In this document: positions 16,033 through 28,447 of the stretch, one piece after another | Numbering within the stretch: the stretch's first letter is position 1 | How the letters are laid out: each line of letters starts with the position of its first letter | IMG/VR virus record: IMGVR_UViG_3300018046_000004 | Coordinates: 1 to 36,229 of that record | Direction: 5' to 3' (one strand) | Length of the DNA: 36,229 nucleotides | Source: a virus | The notes under the pieces: model-generated | Databases searched by the model: none | What the model was told of the DNA's origin: nothing | What the model saw: only the letters and a program-made list of their open reading frames with translations | Position numbers and translations under genes: made by a program

Positions 16033-16058
16033 TAAAAAGGGGCTTATCCGCCCCTTTA
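16033..16058 (-). terminator. Rho-independent terminator after the tail-tube gene
   Basis: Minus strand stem AAAGGGGC / GCCCCTTT with a 6-base loop GGATAA, followed by TTTTT overlap and TTTAAAATTTT. The stem is strong against the AT-rich background. It ends the transcript that carries the tail tube gene and the solitary CRISPR-like repeat. Confidence 0.85.
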
Positions 16059-16071
16059 AATTACTTAGTTT

Positions 16072-16103
16072 GTTTCAATCCACGCGCCCATATGGGACGC
16101 GAC
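16072..16103 (-). CRISPR. Solitary type I-C-like CRISPR repeat (candidate RNA anti-CRISPR)
   Basis: A 32-nt unit on the minus strand: it opens GTCGCG, has an inverted repeat around CCCATATGGG flanked by CGCG on both sides (one bulged T), and ends GCGTGGATTGAAAC. This is the length, stem layout and 3' handle of type I-C repeats. There is one copy only; no second repeat, spacer series or cas gene occurs in the window. It is in the sense orientation of the tail-tube transcript, 43 bases after its stop codon. Its 3' handle is followed by 13 bases up to the rho-independent terminator stem. Phages are known to carry solitary repeat units that act as RNA anti-CRISPRs by occupying Cas proteins; that function here is inferred. 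Confidence 0.75.
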
Positions 16104-16117
16104 AGTGAAATATACTC

Positions 16118-16146
16118 ATAAACATCCCCGTTTACACGGGAAAAAA
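16118..16146 (-). repeat. Hairpin resembling a degenerate type I-E CRISPR repeat
   Basis: Directly after the tail-tube stop codon the minus strand reads TTTTTTCCCGTGTAAACGGGGATG. It forms a CCCGT/ACGGG stem and matches the TTCCC...CGGGGATG core of type I-E repeats, though the outer bases differ. It lies 14 bases upstream of the I-C-like unit. It could equally be a simple structured 3' UTR hairpin. Confidence 0.45.
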
Positions 16147-16911
16147 TTACGCTGGATTATTCAATGAAATCGATCCAGGAAGAGCTGGAGAAACAGATGT
16201 TATTCCACTCGCTGAAGTTAATCTCATCGAAATTGCATCCAGATTAAATGTGTCCAAAGTCTCTGATAACGGGTTATAAGCTGCTTCGAAAGATTCGCTA
16301 AGAATATCAGAAACGTTAATAGTTACTGTTTCTTGTACAAGAGCCGTATCAGAAGCATAAGAAACTGAATAGTCCGACATCCAGCATGCTTCATAATATG
16401 TAATCAAAGCAATAAGACCTTCACCTGCTCCCGGAGTTCCACCTGTTGATGTACCAGTATCCACACCAGGCTCTAATGGAGTATCTACGTTATTTGCATT
16501 AATTGTAGGTCCATAATCGTTATAAGTTAATTGACTAAAAACAAGCTCTTGACGAATATCAAAAGGCCATCGATGATGTCTAAGAGATCTTACGATACCG
16601 TCAACCCCAGATTTATATCCAAAAACTTGGTAAAGATTAGAAATATATAATGCACTTCGTGTAATAGAAATCGTCATAGGATCCGTTACACCAGGTACTA
16701 GTTCTGCAATGTGATCACCAAAACCGATACCACGAATTGGTTCCACTGTTCGTGCTTCTGATGGATCAAAAGTAGAAACAACACCTATTTGTGTAGCCCC
16801 TCCTGAATCAGAAGCATTATATGCATAGATTCGATTTTTTGAACTTATGACGGACAAAGTGTTAGGAGTAACACCGCGTCTAAATATGTAACTGTCTTTA
16901 TCGGTAGGCAT
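16147..16911 (-). CDS. Tail tube protein
   Basis: 254 aa; ATG at 16911 with AAGGAG upstream. The N-terminal half is beta-rich and has the segment RGIGFGDHIAELVPGVTDP followed by MTISITRSALYISNLYQVFGY, a tube-like pattern in which the phage subunit forms a hexameric ring with a short helix. A later block (ALITYYEACWMSDYSVSYAS) followed by a VTINVSDIL strand resembles the closing strands of tube subunits. The gene follows the sheath (with one Cys-rich gene between) and precedes the chaperone and tape measure genes, the classic site. Its stop codon is followed by two CRISPR-repeat-like sequences and a terminator, so its mRNA 3' UTR is unusually structured. Confidence 0.7.
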   Translation of the reverse strand: MPTDKDSYIFRRGVTPNTLSVISSKNRIYAYNASDSGGATQIGVVSTFDPSEARTVEPIRGIGFGDHIAELVPGVTDPMTISITRSALYISNLYQVFGYKSGVDGIVRSLRHHRWPFDIRQELVFSQLTYNDYGPTINANNVDTPLEPGVDTGTSTGGTPGAGEGLIALITYYEACWMSDYSVSYASDTALVQETVTINVSDILSESFEAAYNPLSETLDTFNLDAISMRLTSASGITSVSPALPGSISLNNPA

Positions 16912-21714: not shown

Positions 21715-21831
21715 ATAGGAAAATTTTGTGATAATCCTTGTGATCTAAAAAAAGAAACTGATCTAAAAACTGAACAATTAAAAGCTGAAAAAGAATTAAA
21801 TGATTTCCTTAATGAAATAGTCCCCCAATGA
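21715..21831 (+). CDS. Small ORF with non-standard ATA start at the head of the plus-strand cassette
   Basis: A 38-codon frame (IGKFCDNPCDLKK..., ending NEIVPQ) runs to TGA at 21829-21831. It has a Cys pair and then a charged amphipathic helix. AGAGGA sits 8 bases before codon 1, but the codon in starting position is ATA and no ATG, GTG or TTG is available in frame before an upstream stop. Its stop overlaps the next ATG (ATGA). The coding look, ribosome site and overlap suggest a real gene whose start has mutated, or one using a rare start. Confidence 0.4.
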   Translation: MGKFCDNPCDLKKETDLKTEQLKAEKELNDFLNEIVPQ

Positions 21832-22065
21832 AGATAAAACAAATGAATTTTAAAAAAGGAGATTTGATCATTTATTCAGAGTTTTATACAGAAATTTTAG
21901 AAGGTACTAAAAATAGCAAGTGATCAAGAAAAAAATAATTTTATAGGAACTTTTCAAGTTTATAATCTAGCGAACGGAGCGACAAAAATTCCTATTAATA
22001 TTAAGGACCTAATCTTGTACACGCATTGGGGTGTACATAGCCAACGATTCTGGGATCTTTTAAAA
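21828..22065 (+). pseudogene. Broken first copy of the KKGDLI tandem paralogue family
   Basis: ATG at 21828 starts MKIKQMNFKKGDLIIYSEFYTEILEG, then stops at TGA 21921 after a deletion of ~33-37 bases relative to copy 2 at the position of its CYKIYENKKVKV segment. The remaining body (IASDQEKNNFIGTFQVYNL ... LYTHWGVHSQRFWDLLK) is in another frame and runs without a stop into copy 2, because a homopolymer of A is one base shorter than at the copy 2/copy 3 junction (AAAAATGG against AAAAAATGG). The 3' part is almost identical in DNA to copy 2. A stretch GCGAACGGAGCG replaces part of the segment found in copy 2. Confidence 0.75.
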
Positions 22066-22374
22066 ATGGAAGTGAATAAAACGGATGTTAAAAAAGGGGA
22101 TTTGATCATTTATTCAGCGTTTTATACAGAAATTTTAGAATGTTATAAAATTTATGAAAATAAAAAAGTTAAAGTACAAAAAATAGCGAGTGATCAAGAA
22201 AAAAATAAATATATAGGAACTTTTCAAGTTTATAATCTTTCTTCTCCAGATCCTTCTAAAGCGGGAATTCCTGTTACGATAATTCCTATTAACACCAAGG
22301 ATCTAATCTTGTACACGCATTGGGGTGTACATAGCCAACGATTCTGGGATCTTTTAAAAAATGGGGATAAATAA
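22066..22374 (+). CDS. Small protein, copy 2 of KKGDLI tandem paralogue family
   Basis: 102 aa from ATG at 22066, chosen because it aligns with the start of copy 3 (MGINKMDVKKGD against MEVNKTDVKKGD); the reading frame is open further upstream only because it reads into the broken copy 1. The pattern is KKGDLIIY, a short beta segment, then TKDLILYTHWGVHSQRFWDLLK at the C-terminus. The beta-rich look, starting with a K-K-G-D-L turn, suggests a small SH3-like or barrel fold; this is a guess. It is one of very few plus-strand genes here, convergent with the tail operon. No known family. Confidence 0.65.
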   Translation: MEVNKTDVKKGDLIIYSAFYTEILECYKIYENKKVKVQKIASDQEKNKYIGTFQVYNLSSPDPSKAGIPVTIIPINTKDLILYTHWGVHSQRFWDLLKNGDK

Positions 22375-22669
22375 AATGGATGTTAAAAAAGGGGATCTTA
22401 TATTTTATTTTTTTCGCTATTATGAAATTGTAGAATGTCAAGAATCTGTGAAGGAAGGAAAATCCGGAGATGTAGTGAACATAGCCATTAAGAATATTGA
22501 AGATAAATATTTTTTCGAAAAAAATTGTTCTTATTCGTTTCCAAAAACGGATCCTTGGGACAGCGAGCCTCGTCCAACTATTTTTCGTATCAATTCAAAA
22601 GACTTGATCCTGTACACACATTGGAAACTGCTCAGCCCCAGATTCTGGGAACTTTTAGAAAACAACTAA
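22361..22669 (+). CDS. Small protein, copy 3 of KKGDLI tandem paralogue family
   Basis: 102 aa; start ATG at 22361 overlaps the end of copy 2 by 14 bases. Shares MDVKKGDLIFY at the N-terminus and SKDLILYTHWKLLSPRFWELLEN at the C-terminus with copy 2, but the centre has diverged, so it is an older duplicate. Its TAA stop (22667-22669) overlaps the TAG stop (22666-22668) of the convergent 804-aa gene. Function unknown. Confidence 0.65.
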   Translation: MGINKMDVKKGDLIFYFFRYYEIVECQESVKEGKSGDVVNIAIKNIEDKYFFEKNCSYSFPKTDPWDSEPRPTIFRINSKDLILYTHWKLLSPRFWELLENN

Positions 22670-25080: not shown

Positions 25081-25157
25081 AAAACCGTTCCTTTAAACTT
25101 GGACAATTCCAAGATGTTGAGGTTTGCAACAGGCACCGTAGGGCCGTTCTGAAAAAC
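25081..25157 (-). ncRNA. Candidate omega RNA 3' region / right end of the TnpB element
   Basis: Downstream of the tnpB stop the minus strand contains two foldable parts: a CGGCCCTACGG-type segment and a perfect CTTGGA-ATTG-TCCAAG hairpin preceded by CCTCAACAT. This is the place and general form of the omega RNA scaffold and right-end hairpin in IS200/IS605 elements, where the RNA overlaps the end of tnpB and its guide is copied from sequence just outside the element. If the end is near 25081, the guide would match the first codons of the 804-aa structural gene. Confidence 0.55.
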
Positions 25158-26414
25158 TTATAGAATCTTTGCAAGACTCAAGTTTCCTTCCTGCTTCACT
25201 GAAACAGCCTTTTCAATCATACAGACTTGAACAGGTCTTACACTTTCTCCACAGGCTTTAATTCCCGACAAACTATCGGTATGTTTAAGTTTAATTAATC
25301 CATACTTCTCTAAGTTAATAGATGCATTTAAGTCTCTATCTATGACATTTCCACAATCGCATATATAAATCCTATCTTCAAGAGTTAAATCTTCCTTTAA
25401 ACAACCACAAACAGAACACATCTTACTTGAAGGGAAGAATCTATCTACTTCGATTACTAAACCACCAAACCAAGCAGTCTTATAGGTAAGTTGCCTTTTA
25501 ATTTCACTAAAAGAAGCATCACCTATAGCACCTGCAAGTTTATGGTTCTTCATCATACCAGAAACATTCAAATCTTCTAAGACTATATATCTTGGTTTGG
25601 TTTTCACCAAAATACTTGTCATCTTATGAAGAGCATCTATTCTTTGATTACTTATTCTTTTATATATCTTTTGTACTTTTAACTTAGCTTTATTTCTGTT
25701 GTTACTTGACCTTTTAGTTTCTTTATTAAACTTCTTACGTGCTAAATTCTTTTGTGCACGAGCTAACTTTTTCTTTGATTTTTTTAGATACTTATTATTT
25801 TCAAATGTTTCTCCATTAGAACAAGTAGCTAAAGTCTTTATACCTACATCTACACCCAAAACGGATTCTATCTGATTAGAAGGTTCTGGTATATCTTGTT
25901 CAACCTGAACAGATATAAACCATTTATCAGCATCTTTAGATACTGTCATAGAGTTTATTTTAACGTCTTTAGTTGGGATGTAACCTTTTTCTTTAAGTCT
26001 AACATAACCGACTTTAGGAATATTAATTGTTTCATTGGTTACATAAAATCCAAATGAAATAGAAAATGACTGCTTGGATTTATGTTTACTTTTAAATTTA
26101 GGAAAACCAACTTTTTGACCTTTTTTGATTCCTCGATAGAAGTTTTTGAAGGCAGTATCTAAGTCTCTAAGAGCTTCTTGAGGAGCCATTTTTGAAACTT
26201 CATACATCCAAGGGAACTCTGTTTTCTTTTTACTACATAAAATTTTATGTTGATCTATAGCGGTTAAGGATTTCTTTTCAGATTTATAAAGTTCTATACG
26301 TTCATTCAATCCCCAATTATAAGCAAAACGAGCTACACCAACACTCTTTTCTAAAAGAGTGCGTTGTTTATTATTAGGACTCAGTTCTACTTTATAAGCT
26401 CTATTTATCTTCAT
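25158..26414 (-). CDS. tnpB: TnpB RNA-guided endonuclease, intact
   Basis: 418 aa. The N-terminal wedge/recognition part (res 1-~175) begins MKINRAYKVELSPNNKQ, followed by a bipartite RuvC nuclease: D189 in GVDVGIKTLA, E280 in VLEDLNVSGM and D361 in DRDLNAS. The zinc finger CSVCG (C333, C336) with CDCG (C352, C354) lies between the last two, as in functional TnpB. All catalytic residues are therefore present and length is normal. TnpB cuts DNA guided by an omega RNA from the same element and helps keep the transposon in place. It lies in an island between the actin-like gene and an 804-aa structural gene. Confidence 0.93.
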   Translation of the reverse strand: MKINRAYKVELSPNNKQRTLLEKSVGVARFAYNWGLNERIELYKSEKKSLTAIDQHKILCSKKKTEFPWMYEVSKMAPQEALRDLDTAFKNFYRGIKKGQKVGFPKFKSKHKSKQSFSISFGFYVTNETINIPKVGYVRLKEKGYIPTKDVKINSMTVSKDADKWFISVQVEQDIPEPSNQIESVLGVDVGIKTLATCSNGETFENNKYLKKSKKKLARAQKNLARKKFNKETKRSSNNRNKAKLKVQKIYKRISNQRIDALHKMTSILVKTKPRYIVLEDLNVSGMMKNHKLAGAIGDASFSEIKRQLTYKTAWFGGLVIEVDRFFPSSKMCSVCGCLKEDLTLEDRIYICDCGNVIDRDLNASINLEKYGLIKLKHTDSLSGIKACGESVRPVQVCMIEKAVSVKQEGNLSLAKIL

Positions 26415-26492
26415 TTTCTTTATTCTTCTTAGTCATAAAAAATGCAAAAATTCGCTAAATTTCTTCAACTTTCTATAAATTATTTATATCTG

Positions 26493-27275
26493 TTAGATTC
26501 CCAAATTCTTCAATCTCTCAACCACAATCAAGCCCGGATCAAGAGCCATTATTTCCTTTACAGATTCATTTATGTACTGCTTTATCGCCCTACGGGCCCG
26601 TTTTTGCCCATTTGAGCCGTGCTTGCACCTCTTTACACGTTCAATCATCTGTTTTATTTCTGTACCAATCTGTATTCCATTATTCAAAGAGGCTAAGGCG
26701 TTTATTCCGGTGTCTATTCCTATACAGTTTACAAAAGGTTTCTTTGCGCCGGTTTCAATCTCGAAAACAAACTGAACATACCGGTCGGTTATGATATAAC
26801 TGTTCAGCCTCTTGCCCAAAAATGCAAGCTTATTGTAGTGCTTGTGGTACTTCACCGGCAAGTCAAGTATGTGCTTGTTTCCGACTGAGGCAATATGAAG
26901 CCACGCATCGAACTCTGTTGCTTCTTCAGAATTGTTCAATCCAGCAATGGTGCATGAAACATACATTCTCTTGCCTTTGTGAACTGGCATGGACACCTTA
27001 TTCGGTTTATTTTTCCATCGTTCTTTTATGGACCGGATCATATCTATAGCTTCACGGGCAGCAACCTTTCTGAGCCGGGCAGAGAGCCAAGTGTCTTGAG
27101 GCAAATCAACTATATTTTTTAGTAACTTTGCTTTATCGGGACATCCATTCTTCCAGAAATGTTCAATGAACACATTACAGACCTTACCATACTCATCAAG
27201 AATGACTCTGAGTTCTTCAAGTTTAGACTGCGTAGAAAACTTTAGGCTGCATTTGGTTGATCGGATCAATTTCAT
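26493..27275 (-). pseudogene. Truncated TnpB-family protein of a different lineage
   Basis: 260 aa, MKLIRSTKCSLKFSTQ... to VVERLKNLGI and stop. It has the RuvC-I aspartate (GIDTGINALAS, D~189) and RuvC-II glutamate (IVVERLKNLG) but ends there, missing the zinc finger and RuvC-III aspartate (~100 residues), so it cannot be a normal nuclease. It shares little with the neighbouring TnpB beyond the family core. Codon choice is visibly more GC-rich than surrounding phage genes (for example the stretch near 26580-26640), pointing to acquisition from elsewhere. Its break point coincides with the start of the intact TnpB element, which suggests that insertion, or a later deletion, removed its 3' end. 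Confidence 0.8.
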
Positions 27276-27401
27276 TTTATTAAATTCTTTTTCTTTTTAC
27301 GATTTTCTGCACTTCTTTTACCATAAATTAATATATAATTAAATGTATAATTTTTTCCAGAAATGTTCAAGTTTCTATGTAGCTATCTCAAACCCCTGAC
27401 C

Positions 27402-27431
27402 AGAAACACCACCGCATAACGCGGGGAAGAC
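27402..27431 (-). CRISPR. Solitary type I-E-like CRISPR repeat
   Basis: Minus strand 30 nt beginning GTCTTCCCCGCG, a TTAT loop, GCGG, then TGGTGTTTCT. It has the form of type I-E repeats (GT.TTCCCCGC, loop, GCGGGG, TG.. 3' handle), with one extra loop base and a T in the 3' arm. It starts 5 bases after the stop codon of the actin-like gene and is in transcript sense. No second copy or spacer array is present. Alternative: a hairpin of an IS200/IS605-type end, since TnpB genes follow. Confidence 0.55.
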
Positions 27432-27436
27432 TTTGT

Positions 27437-28447
27437 TTATTCCGTATAATTAAGAGCGGCCACTAACAAACCTTGAGCTACGCTTGATAAAAGGTCATTC
27501 GCCATCCTAATCTCGGATATTGGAATTGTAAAGGTATCCTTTACATTTTTAAATCCCTCTTCAAATAATTCTTTAAAACCTTTTGGTAAAGCCGTTCCCC
27601 CACTTAAAATTAGAGGTATGGACTCCGGAAGTTCGAACCCGCTACCGGTTTTCACGAACCTGTTTTTAATAGCATCAAGAGTCTTCAATATCAAACTCTT
27701 GTAATAAATAATAAGAGCTTCTCGTTCTCTGAAAGTTTTGGGGTCTCCATCAGAGGCGTCCAATAAATTCAGATGTTTTTCTTTAATGGCTTGTATTCGA
27801 GCCATTGTGGATCCGGTAGCTTTGGCTGCCATATCATCGATGTAATCTCCAGAAGTTGAGAGACTGAAGGTCATACCGACTATCGTATTGTAAAGCAACG
27901 CAACATTCACGGCTCCCGCTCCAAAAGAAAGCGCTAATGCTGAAAACTGTTCTTTAGCACAATTTGAATAAACTATTGCAGCAGACTCATTCATAGCAAC
28001 GGCTTTATAACCTAAACTTGAAAGAATTTTCCCGCACATCGCTGCGTGATAAACAACATCTATGTTTCTATCAATGGGATTACCTGGGATAGAGTAGTAA
28101 CAAATTTCGCCGGGAGTAGAAGCTTTTCCTAAAATAGACTCGAGCAAAACAAGCAACACCTTTTCAGCTTCGAGTTCCCCTGGAGCAAGCACTCCTTTTG
28201 ATAATGGACGACGACACTCCCGTTTAAATATATTAGCCATTGTTACAGCAGAATCACCAATAATGTATAATTTTTCTCCCGCTTCAATATAATTAATTTT
28301 ACCGTTCTTTAACATATTTTTTACGGACGGGTCATTATTTTCCATATCAAAAAAAGCATCTCGAATGGATTTTGTTTTAATTTCCCCATTATCAGCTTGC
28401 TGCGCCGCCACCAAAAAGCATGTCCCGATATCCACTGATTTAGCCAT
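27437..28447 (-). CDS. Actin-like ATPase (ParM/MreB-type fold)
   Basis: 336 aa, close to bacterial actin lengths. Phosphate-1 loop VDIGTCFLVAA (res ~5-15; D6), a phosphate-2-like loop ALSFGAGAVNVALL (mid-protein), and an adenosine-type motif IPLILSGGTALPKGF near the C-terminus are in the proper order. The second loop has Ser where many actins have Asp (D-x-G-x-G becomes S-F-G-A-G), which may affect hydrolysis. SD GGGAG precedes ATG at 28447. It is unusual within a virion structural cluster. Phage actins can form filaments that segregate or position phage DNA or replication sites; a role with assembly is speculative. It is followed at once by an I-E-like repeat and a TnpB island. Confidence 0.8.
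   Translation of the reverse strand: MAKSVDIGTCFLVAAQQADNGEIKTKSIRDAFFDMENNDPSVKNMLKNGKINYIEAGEKLYIIGDSAVTMANIFKRECRRPLSKGVLAPGELEAEKVLLVLLESILGKASTPGEICYYSIPGNPIDRNIDVVYHAAMCGKILSSLGYKAVAMNESAAIVYSNCAKEQFSALALSFGAGAVNVALLYNTIVGMTFSLSTSGDYIDDMAAKATGSTMARIQAIKEKHLNLLDASDGDPKTFREREALIIYYKSLILKTLDAIKNRFVKTGSGFELPESIPLILSGGTALPKGFKELFEEGFKNVKDTFTIPISEIRMANDLLSSVAQGLLVAALNYTE

Follow-up and report, generated by a model that had tools for sequence, protein, structure and literature searches.

Solitary CRISPR repeats in viral genomes are known RNA anti-CRISPRs (Racrs), and candidates of types I-F, I-E, I-C, and V-A have been tested with success (Camara-Wilpert et al. 2023, PMC10651486). The described repeat units often follow a promoter; with RacrIF1, the upstream cleavage product is responsible for the effect, which is lost when the stem is damaged (PMC10651486). 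Host-type repeats are also borne by viruses in the form of CRISPR mini-arrays, which are associated with inter-virus competition (PMC11656645).

Here we describe a locus of this kind in the window, that is, the whole analysed stretch of viral DNA of 36,229 nucleotides (IMG/VR record IMGVR_UViG_3300018046_000004), which belongs to a huge-phage lineage. Like the described Racrs, whose I-E and I-C kinds were found in IMG/VR and tested (PMC10651486), it has a single host-type repeat lying between genes of a viral genome, with neither cas genes nor a second repeat. It differs from them in having no evident promoter of its own, in its position behind a phage gene in mRNA sense, in its bulged stem, and in that units of two subtypes occur in one 36-kb fragment. 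The difference from the mini-arrays (PMC11656645) is that the phage unit has no second repeat and therefore no spacer. With the I-E* arrays of Pseudomonas silesiensis plasmid pPL1, Klebsiella, Enterobacter, and Serratia, the unit shares the arms GTCTTCCCC...GGTGTTTC and a core stem of six G-C pairs.

Sequence and Position of the I-E-like Unit

The solitary I-E (I-E*) repeat-like unit, GTCTTCCCCGCGTTATGCGGTGGTGTTTC(T), occupies positions 27402–27431 of the minus strand and was characterized by pattern search, covariance model, position weight matrix (PWM), and comparison with arrays. Positions 27431–27403(−) read GTCTTCCCCGCGTTATGCGGTGGTGTTTC, laid out as GTCTTCCCCGCG-TTAT-GCGGTGG-TGTTTC; the 5′ part is followed by the stem CCCCGC/GCGG-T-GG with one bulged T, the loop GTTAT, and a handle-like TGTTTC. 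All six G-C stem pairs and both outer arms are retained, and the unit has the features of a type I-E repeat, namely a length of 28–29 nt, a stem that pairs a C-rich with a G-rich strand over some six or seven pairs, and the fixed 3′ handle. The exact pattern occurs once in the window and in none of 100 shuffles.

The unit begins 5 nt past the TAA of an actin-like gene (27437–28447(−); Pfam Volactin, E 4e-62) and is intergenic, lying between this stop codon and the left end of an IS607-type element; no open reading frame of at least 60 aa crosses it. Its sense is that of the actin transcript, which would continue into it, and also the crRNA reading direction of I-E repeats. The sequence, strand, coordinates, and distance from the actin-like gene given in the original prediction are correct. 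It should be noted that the RNA folding energy of the unit is ordinary (z = −0.57), so that the evidence lies in the sequence and the stem and not in stability.

Similarity to Type I-E Repeats

A BLAST search with the unit and its short flanks against plasmids gave twelve matches, all with chance-level E-values, and one of these, in P. silesiensis plasmid pPL1 (E 3), spans exactly the 29-nt unit. BLAST alone is no proof, since this E-value resembles that of the single match found in E. coli genomes, a chance-level one in yjcE (E 2); the pPL1 match counts because of its exact 29-nt span and its position within an I-E array. This array comprises 20 repeats with the consensus GTCTTCCCCGCATTCGCGGGGGTGTTTC (25/29 to the phage unit) and adjoins cas3, casA, casB, cas6e, cas7e, cas5e, and cas1e, so the locus has a working look. 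The copy GTCTTCCCCGCGTTCGCGGGGGTGTTTC agrees with the phage unit at 26/29 positions and is the closest repeat that we found. Apart from being solitary, the phage unit differs from it in the loop, which has an additional base and one change, and in the 3′ strand of the stem, where T replaces G; the stem energies are −8.4 kcal/mol for the phage unit versus −13.2 kcal/mol for the Pseudomonas repeat. SRUFinder defines a solitary repeat by a match to a known repeat (library of 17,823 repeats) with identity and coverage of at least 90% and a bit score of at least 41.1; among the few dozen repeats that we compared, the best value was 26/29 = 89.7%, and the longest ungapped match scored 28.2 bits.

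For the chance estimates, we combined published Klebsiella repeats with I-E repeats taken from E. coli and from plasmid-borne cas loci in several phyla. A covariance model of 19 I-E repeats, none of them taken from the window, places 27431–27402(−) ahead of every other site of the window, with 13.4 bits and E 0.015 (E 0.38 for the next site), and gives no matches in the DNA of related phages and elements (159 kb). With a generic I-E PWM from the same repeats, the unit scores 27.6 versus 12.0 for the next independent site, and two positions in 616 Mb of simulated Markov DNA with the same dinucleotide make-up reach 27.6 (2.4e-4 expected per window). An I-E* PWM gives 33.6 versus a maximum of 27.6 in the 616 Mb of simulated DNA, with no simulated position as high. 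The generic figure of about 2e-4 per window, which still needs multiplying by the number of CRISPR families that might have been tried, is the fairer of the two, since the I-E* set was picked after the likeness had been noticed. When the two I-E* rows are left out of the PWM, no site of the window outscores the unit (20.9), but a score this high also turns up in 2 of 300 one-strand control windows; the generic I-E form alone is therefore weaker evidence.

Overall, the I-E plan proposed in the original prediction is borne out, a genuine I-E array contains almost the same repeat, and the identity of the unit as a repeat mimic is well supported. Rfam contains no match to the unit, exact and relaxed patterns retrieve no other virus from IMG/VR, and BLAST against phage records returns none.

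The I-C Unit and Its Cassette

The same phage carries a solitary I-C repeat, GTCGCGTCCCATATGGGCGCGTGGATTGAAAC, at positions 16072–16103(−), with 28/32 identity to published I-C repeats of Legionella, P. aeruginosa, and Xanthomonas. Judged from this identity, it is unmistakably an I-C repeat; its PWM score is 43.8, and nothing in the 616 Mb of simulated DNA exceeds 25.1. Since this unit is real as well, the phage carries mimics of two CRISPR subtypes, as had been predicted, and each of them lies directly or shortly behind a gene.

The gene ahead of the I-C unit is a conserved phage gene of 254 aa (16147–16911(−)). The cassette behind it (16146–16034(−)) consists, in this order, of a weak I-E-like hairpin that immediately follows the stop codon (16118–16146(−)), the I-C repeat beside it, and a normal intrinsic terminator, AAAGGGGCGGATAAGCCCCTTTTT, read from the sequence 3′ of the I-C unit (16034–16057(−)). 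The hairpin is the second-best site of the generic I-E PWM (12.0) and alone is not significant (covariance model E 1.8). The cassette is retained in a second record of this phage (G008); relatives have a different sequence at its position, mostly a terminator.

The same bulged I-C form occurs singly in other viral contigs, at L045:3087–3118, L049:4854–4885, L046:448–479, and L048:1075–1106. It lies in sense behind a stop codon in L045 (3 nt after) and L049 (45 nt after), and overlaps an opposite-strand open reading frame in L046 and L048. As a separate observation, the 485-kb huge phage LR745208.1, a distant relative with a related actin, has three I-C-like GAGTGGATTGAAAC sites with hairpins, at 435250, 435355, and 481748 (L056, L058, and L059); two of them, separated by 105 nt, overlap open frames.

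The IS607-Type Element and Alternative Explanations

Downstream, the unit is bordered by an IS607-type element with a later TnpB inside (25085–27394(−)), in which tnpA is a C-terminal remnant and tnpB is truncated, and a full second TnpB (25158–26414) lies between the truncated one and the right end, GGAACGG at 25085. Intact IS607 relatives (L002 and L018) start with GGTTC(C/T)AAC and finish with GGAACGG. Left-end homology to them can be traced as far as about 27380, with 4 and 5 of 500 shuffles doing equally well, and spacing sets the left end of the element at GGT 27394–27392. Because the left end is near 27394, the unit lies 7 nt outside the element, which is not part of it and marks its downstream border. 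The close adjacency of the TnpB island could suggest that the unit is the terminal hairpin of this neighbouring TnpB element, of IS607 or IS605 type, and the original prediction had named the same sequence at the termini of related TnpB elements as the observation pointing to a transposon end. No such sequence is present at the ends of the IS607-TnpB relatives: the unit aligns with the left-end regions of four related elements no better than shuffles do, and the I-E model finds no matches in the related element loci. IS607 elements use a serine recombinase, for which a terminal hairpin is not required. With the element also stopping short of the unit, we reject the transposon-end explanation as very improbable. 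One of the intact relatives, L002, is a Candidatus Altiarchaeales MAG contig (WJJK01000240.1) with an intact IS607 tnpA-tnpB element close to that of the window; this contig may be a misbinned phage contig, since its other genes look phage-like.

The adjacency of the element bears also on whether the unit is a functionless host CRISPR repeat that was picked up accidentally, perhaps as a leftover next to a mobile element, and distant relatives without such a sequence would fit this. Against such a passive origin, which we regard as quite improbable, the unit has exactly one repeat length, the 100-nt flanks on both sides contain no partial repeat or array remnant but merely short chance alignments, and the I-C unit is placed similarly with no mobile element adjoining it. 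Somewhat less improbable, although still unlikely, is that the actin gene simply has an intrinsic terminator or mRNA 3′ hairpin of the usual kind, whose likeness to a repeat is accidental. The hairpin stands directly past a stop codon, a terminator scan lists the site, and the flank of the empty site would read CAGGGGTTTTTT, which is able to pair with the CCCC of the unit. The G-C hairpin of an intrinsic terminator is indeed present, but the T-run is broken (TGGTGTTTCT), and terminator-like sites in the stretch are near the shuffle level (8 vs. 5.2). A terminator also has no need of GTCTT and GGTGTTTC, the two arms that account for much of the score, and in relatives the downstream gene directly follows actin.

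Proposed Model of RNA Anti-CRISPR Action

We put at roughly 0.6 the probability that 27402–27431 is a solitary I-E (I-E*) repeat unit that acts, with its I-C companion, as a Racr. Counted in favour of this reading are the 26/29 identity to a repeat of an I-E array, the crRNA orientation, the position outside the mobile element, and the solitary I-C repeat in the same phage together with the single I-C forms elsewhere. Several points count against it: the stem is weakened by its bulged T, and a damaged stem made RacrIF1 inactive; no promoter of the unit's own is evident, the promoter scan being at chance level, and the described units often follow one; the unit is absent from distant relatives; and, with the few repeats compared, the identity of 89.7% is just under the 90% of SRUFinder and the bit score falls below its threshold.

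For transcription, cutting, and sequestration, we infer the course of events by analogy with the tested Racrs (PMC10651486). The actin mRNA would run through the I-E-like unit, and host Cas6e would bind the hairpin in it and cut at the 3′ base of the hairpin. The upstream RNA with bound Cas6e would then recruit Cas7 without yielding a functional Cascade, with Cas6e and Cas7 tied to phage RNA rather than to crRNA; the I-C unit may tie up Cas5c likewise. Since the effect of RacrIF1 resides in the product upstream of the cut, a unit located at an mRNA's 3′ end could work.

It is thus most likely that the phage uses a known trick, decoy RNAs that jam host CRISPR immunity, in a less usual arrangement, although we infer the function, transcription, and host of the unit. 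A more specific version, which we consider doubtful, is that promoterless decoys of two CRISPR subtypes are embedded in the 3′ transcripts of phage genes, where Cas6e and Cas5c would trim the mRNAs and be consumed in proportion to phage transcription. If the Racr reading is true, one phage fragment supplies candidate Racrs against I-E* and I-C systems (29 and 32 nt, respectively), and the question arises of whether Racrs need a promoter of their own or can ride the mRNAs of phage genes.

Distribution among Relatives

The I-E-like unit is absent from all six IMG/VR contigs whose actin is about 65% identical. In most of these contigs, a homologue of the window's 804-aa gene follows a few to tens of bases past actin; in L004 and L006, other sequence lies between the two. 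More distant actins are present in two huge-phage records (485 and 595 kb), and our searches found no close relative with the actin region. A general I-E model gave no convincing second unit in the relatives (in LR745208, the two best matches were examined), and no I-E-like unit turned up when 29 genomes from the phylum to which L002 led were scanned with a pattern. As far as can be seen from these sequences, the unit appears to be lineage-specific.

The closest I-E* and I-C repeats that we found are all proteobacterial, which gives a hint of a proteobacterial host for the huge-phage group. Elsewhere in the window, at 21827–22669(+), there are three tandem related stretches whose short open reading frames face the opposite way from the phage genes.
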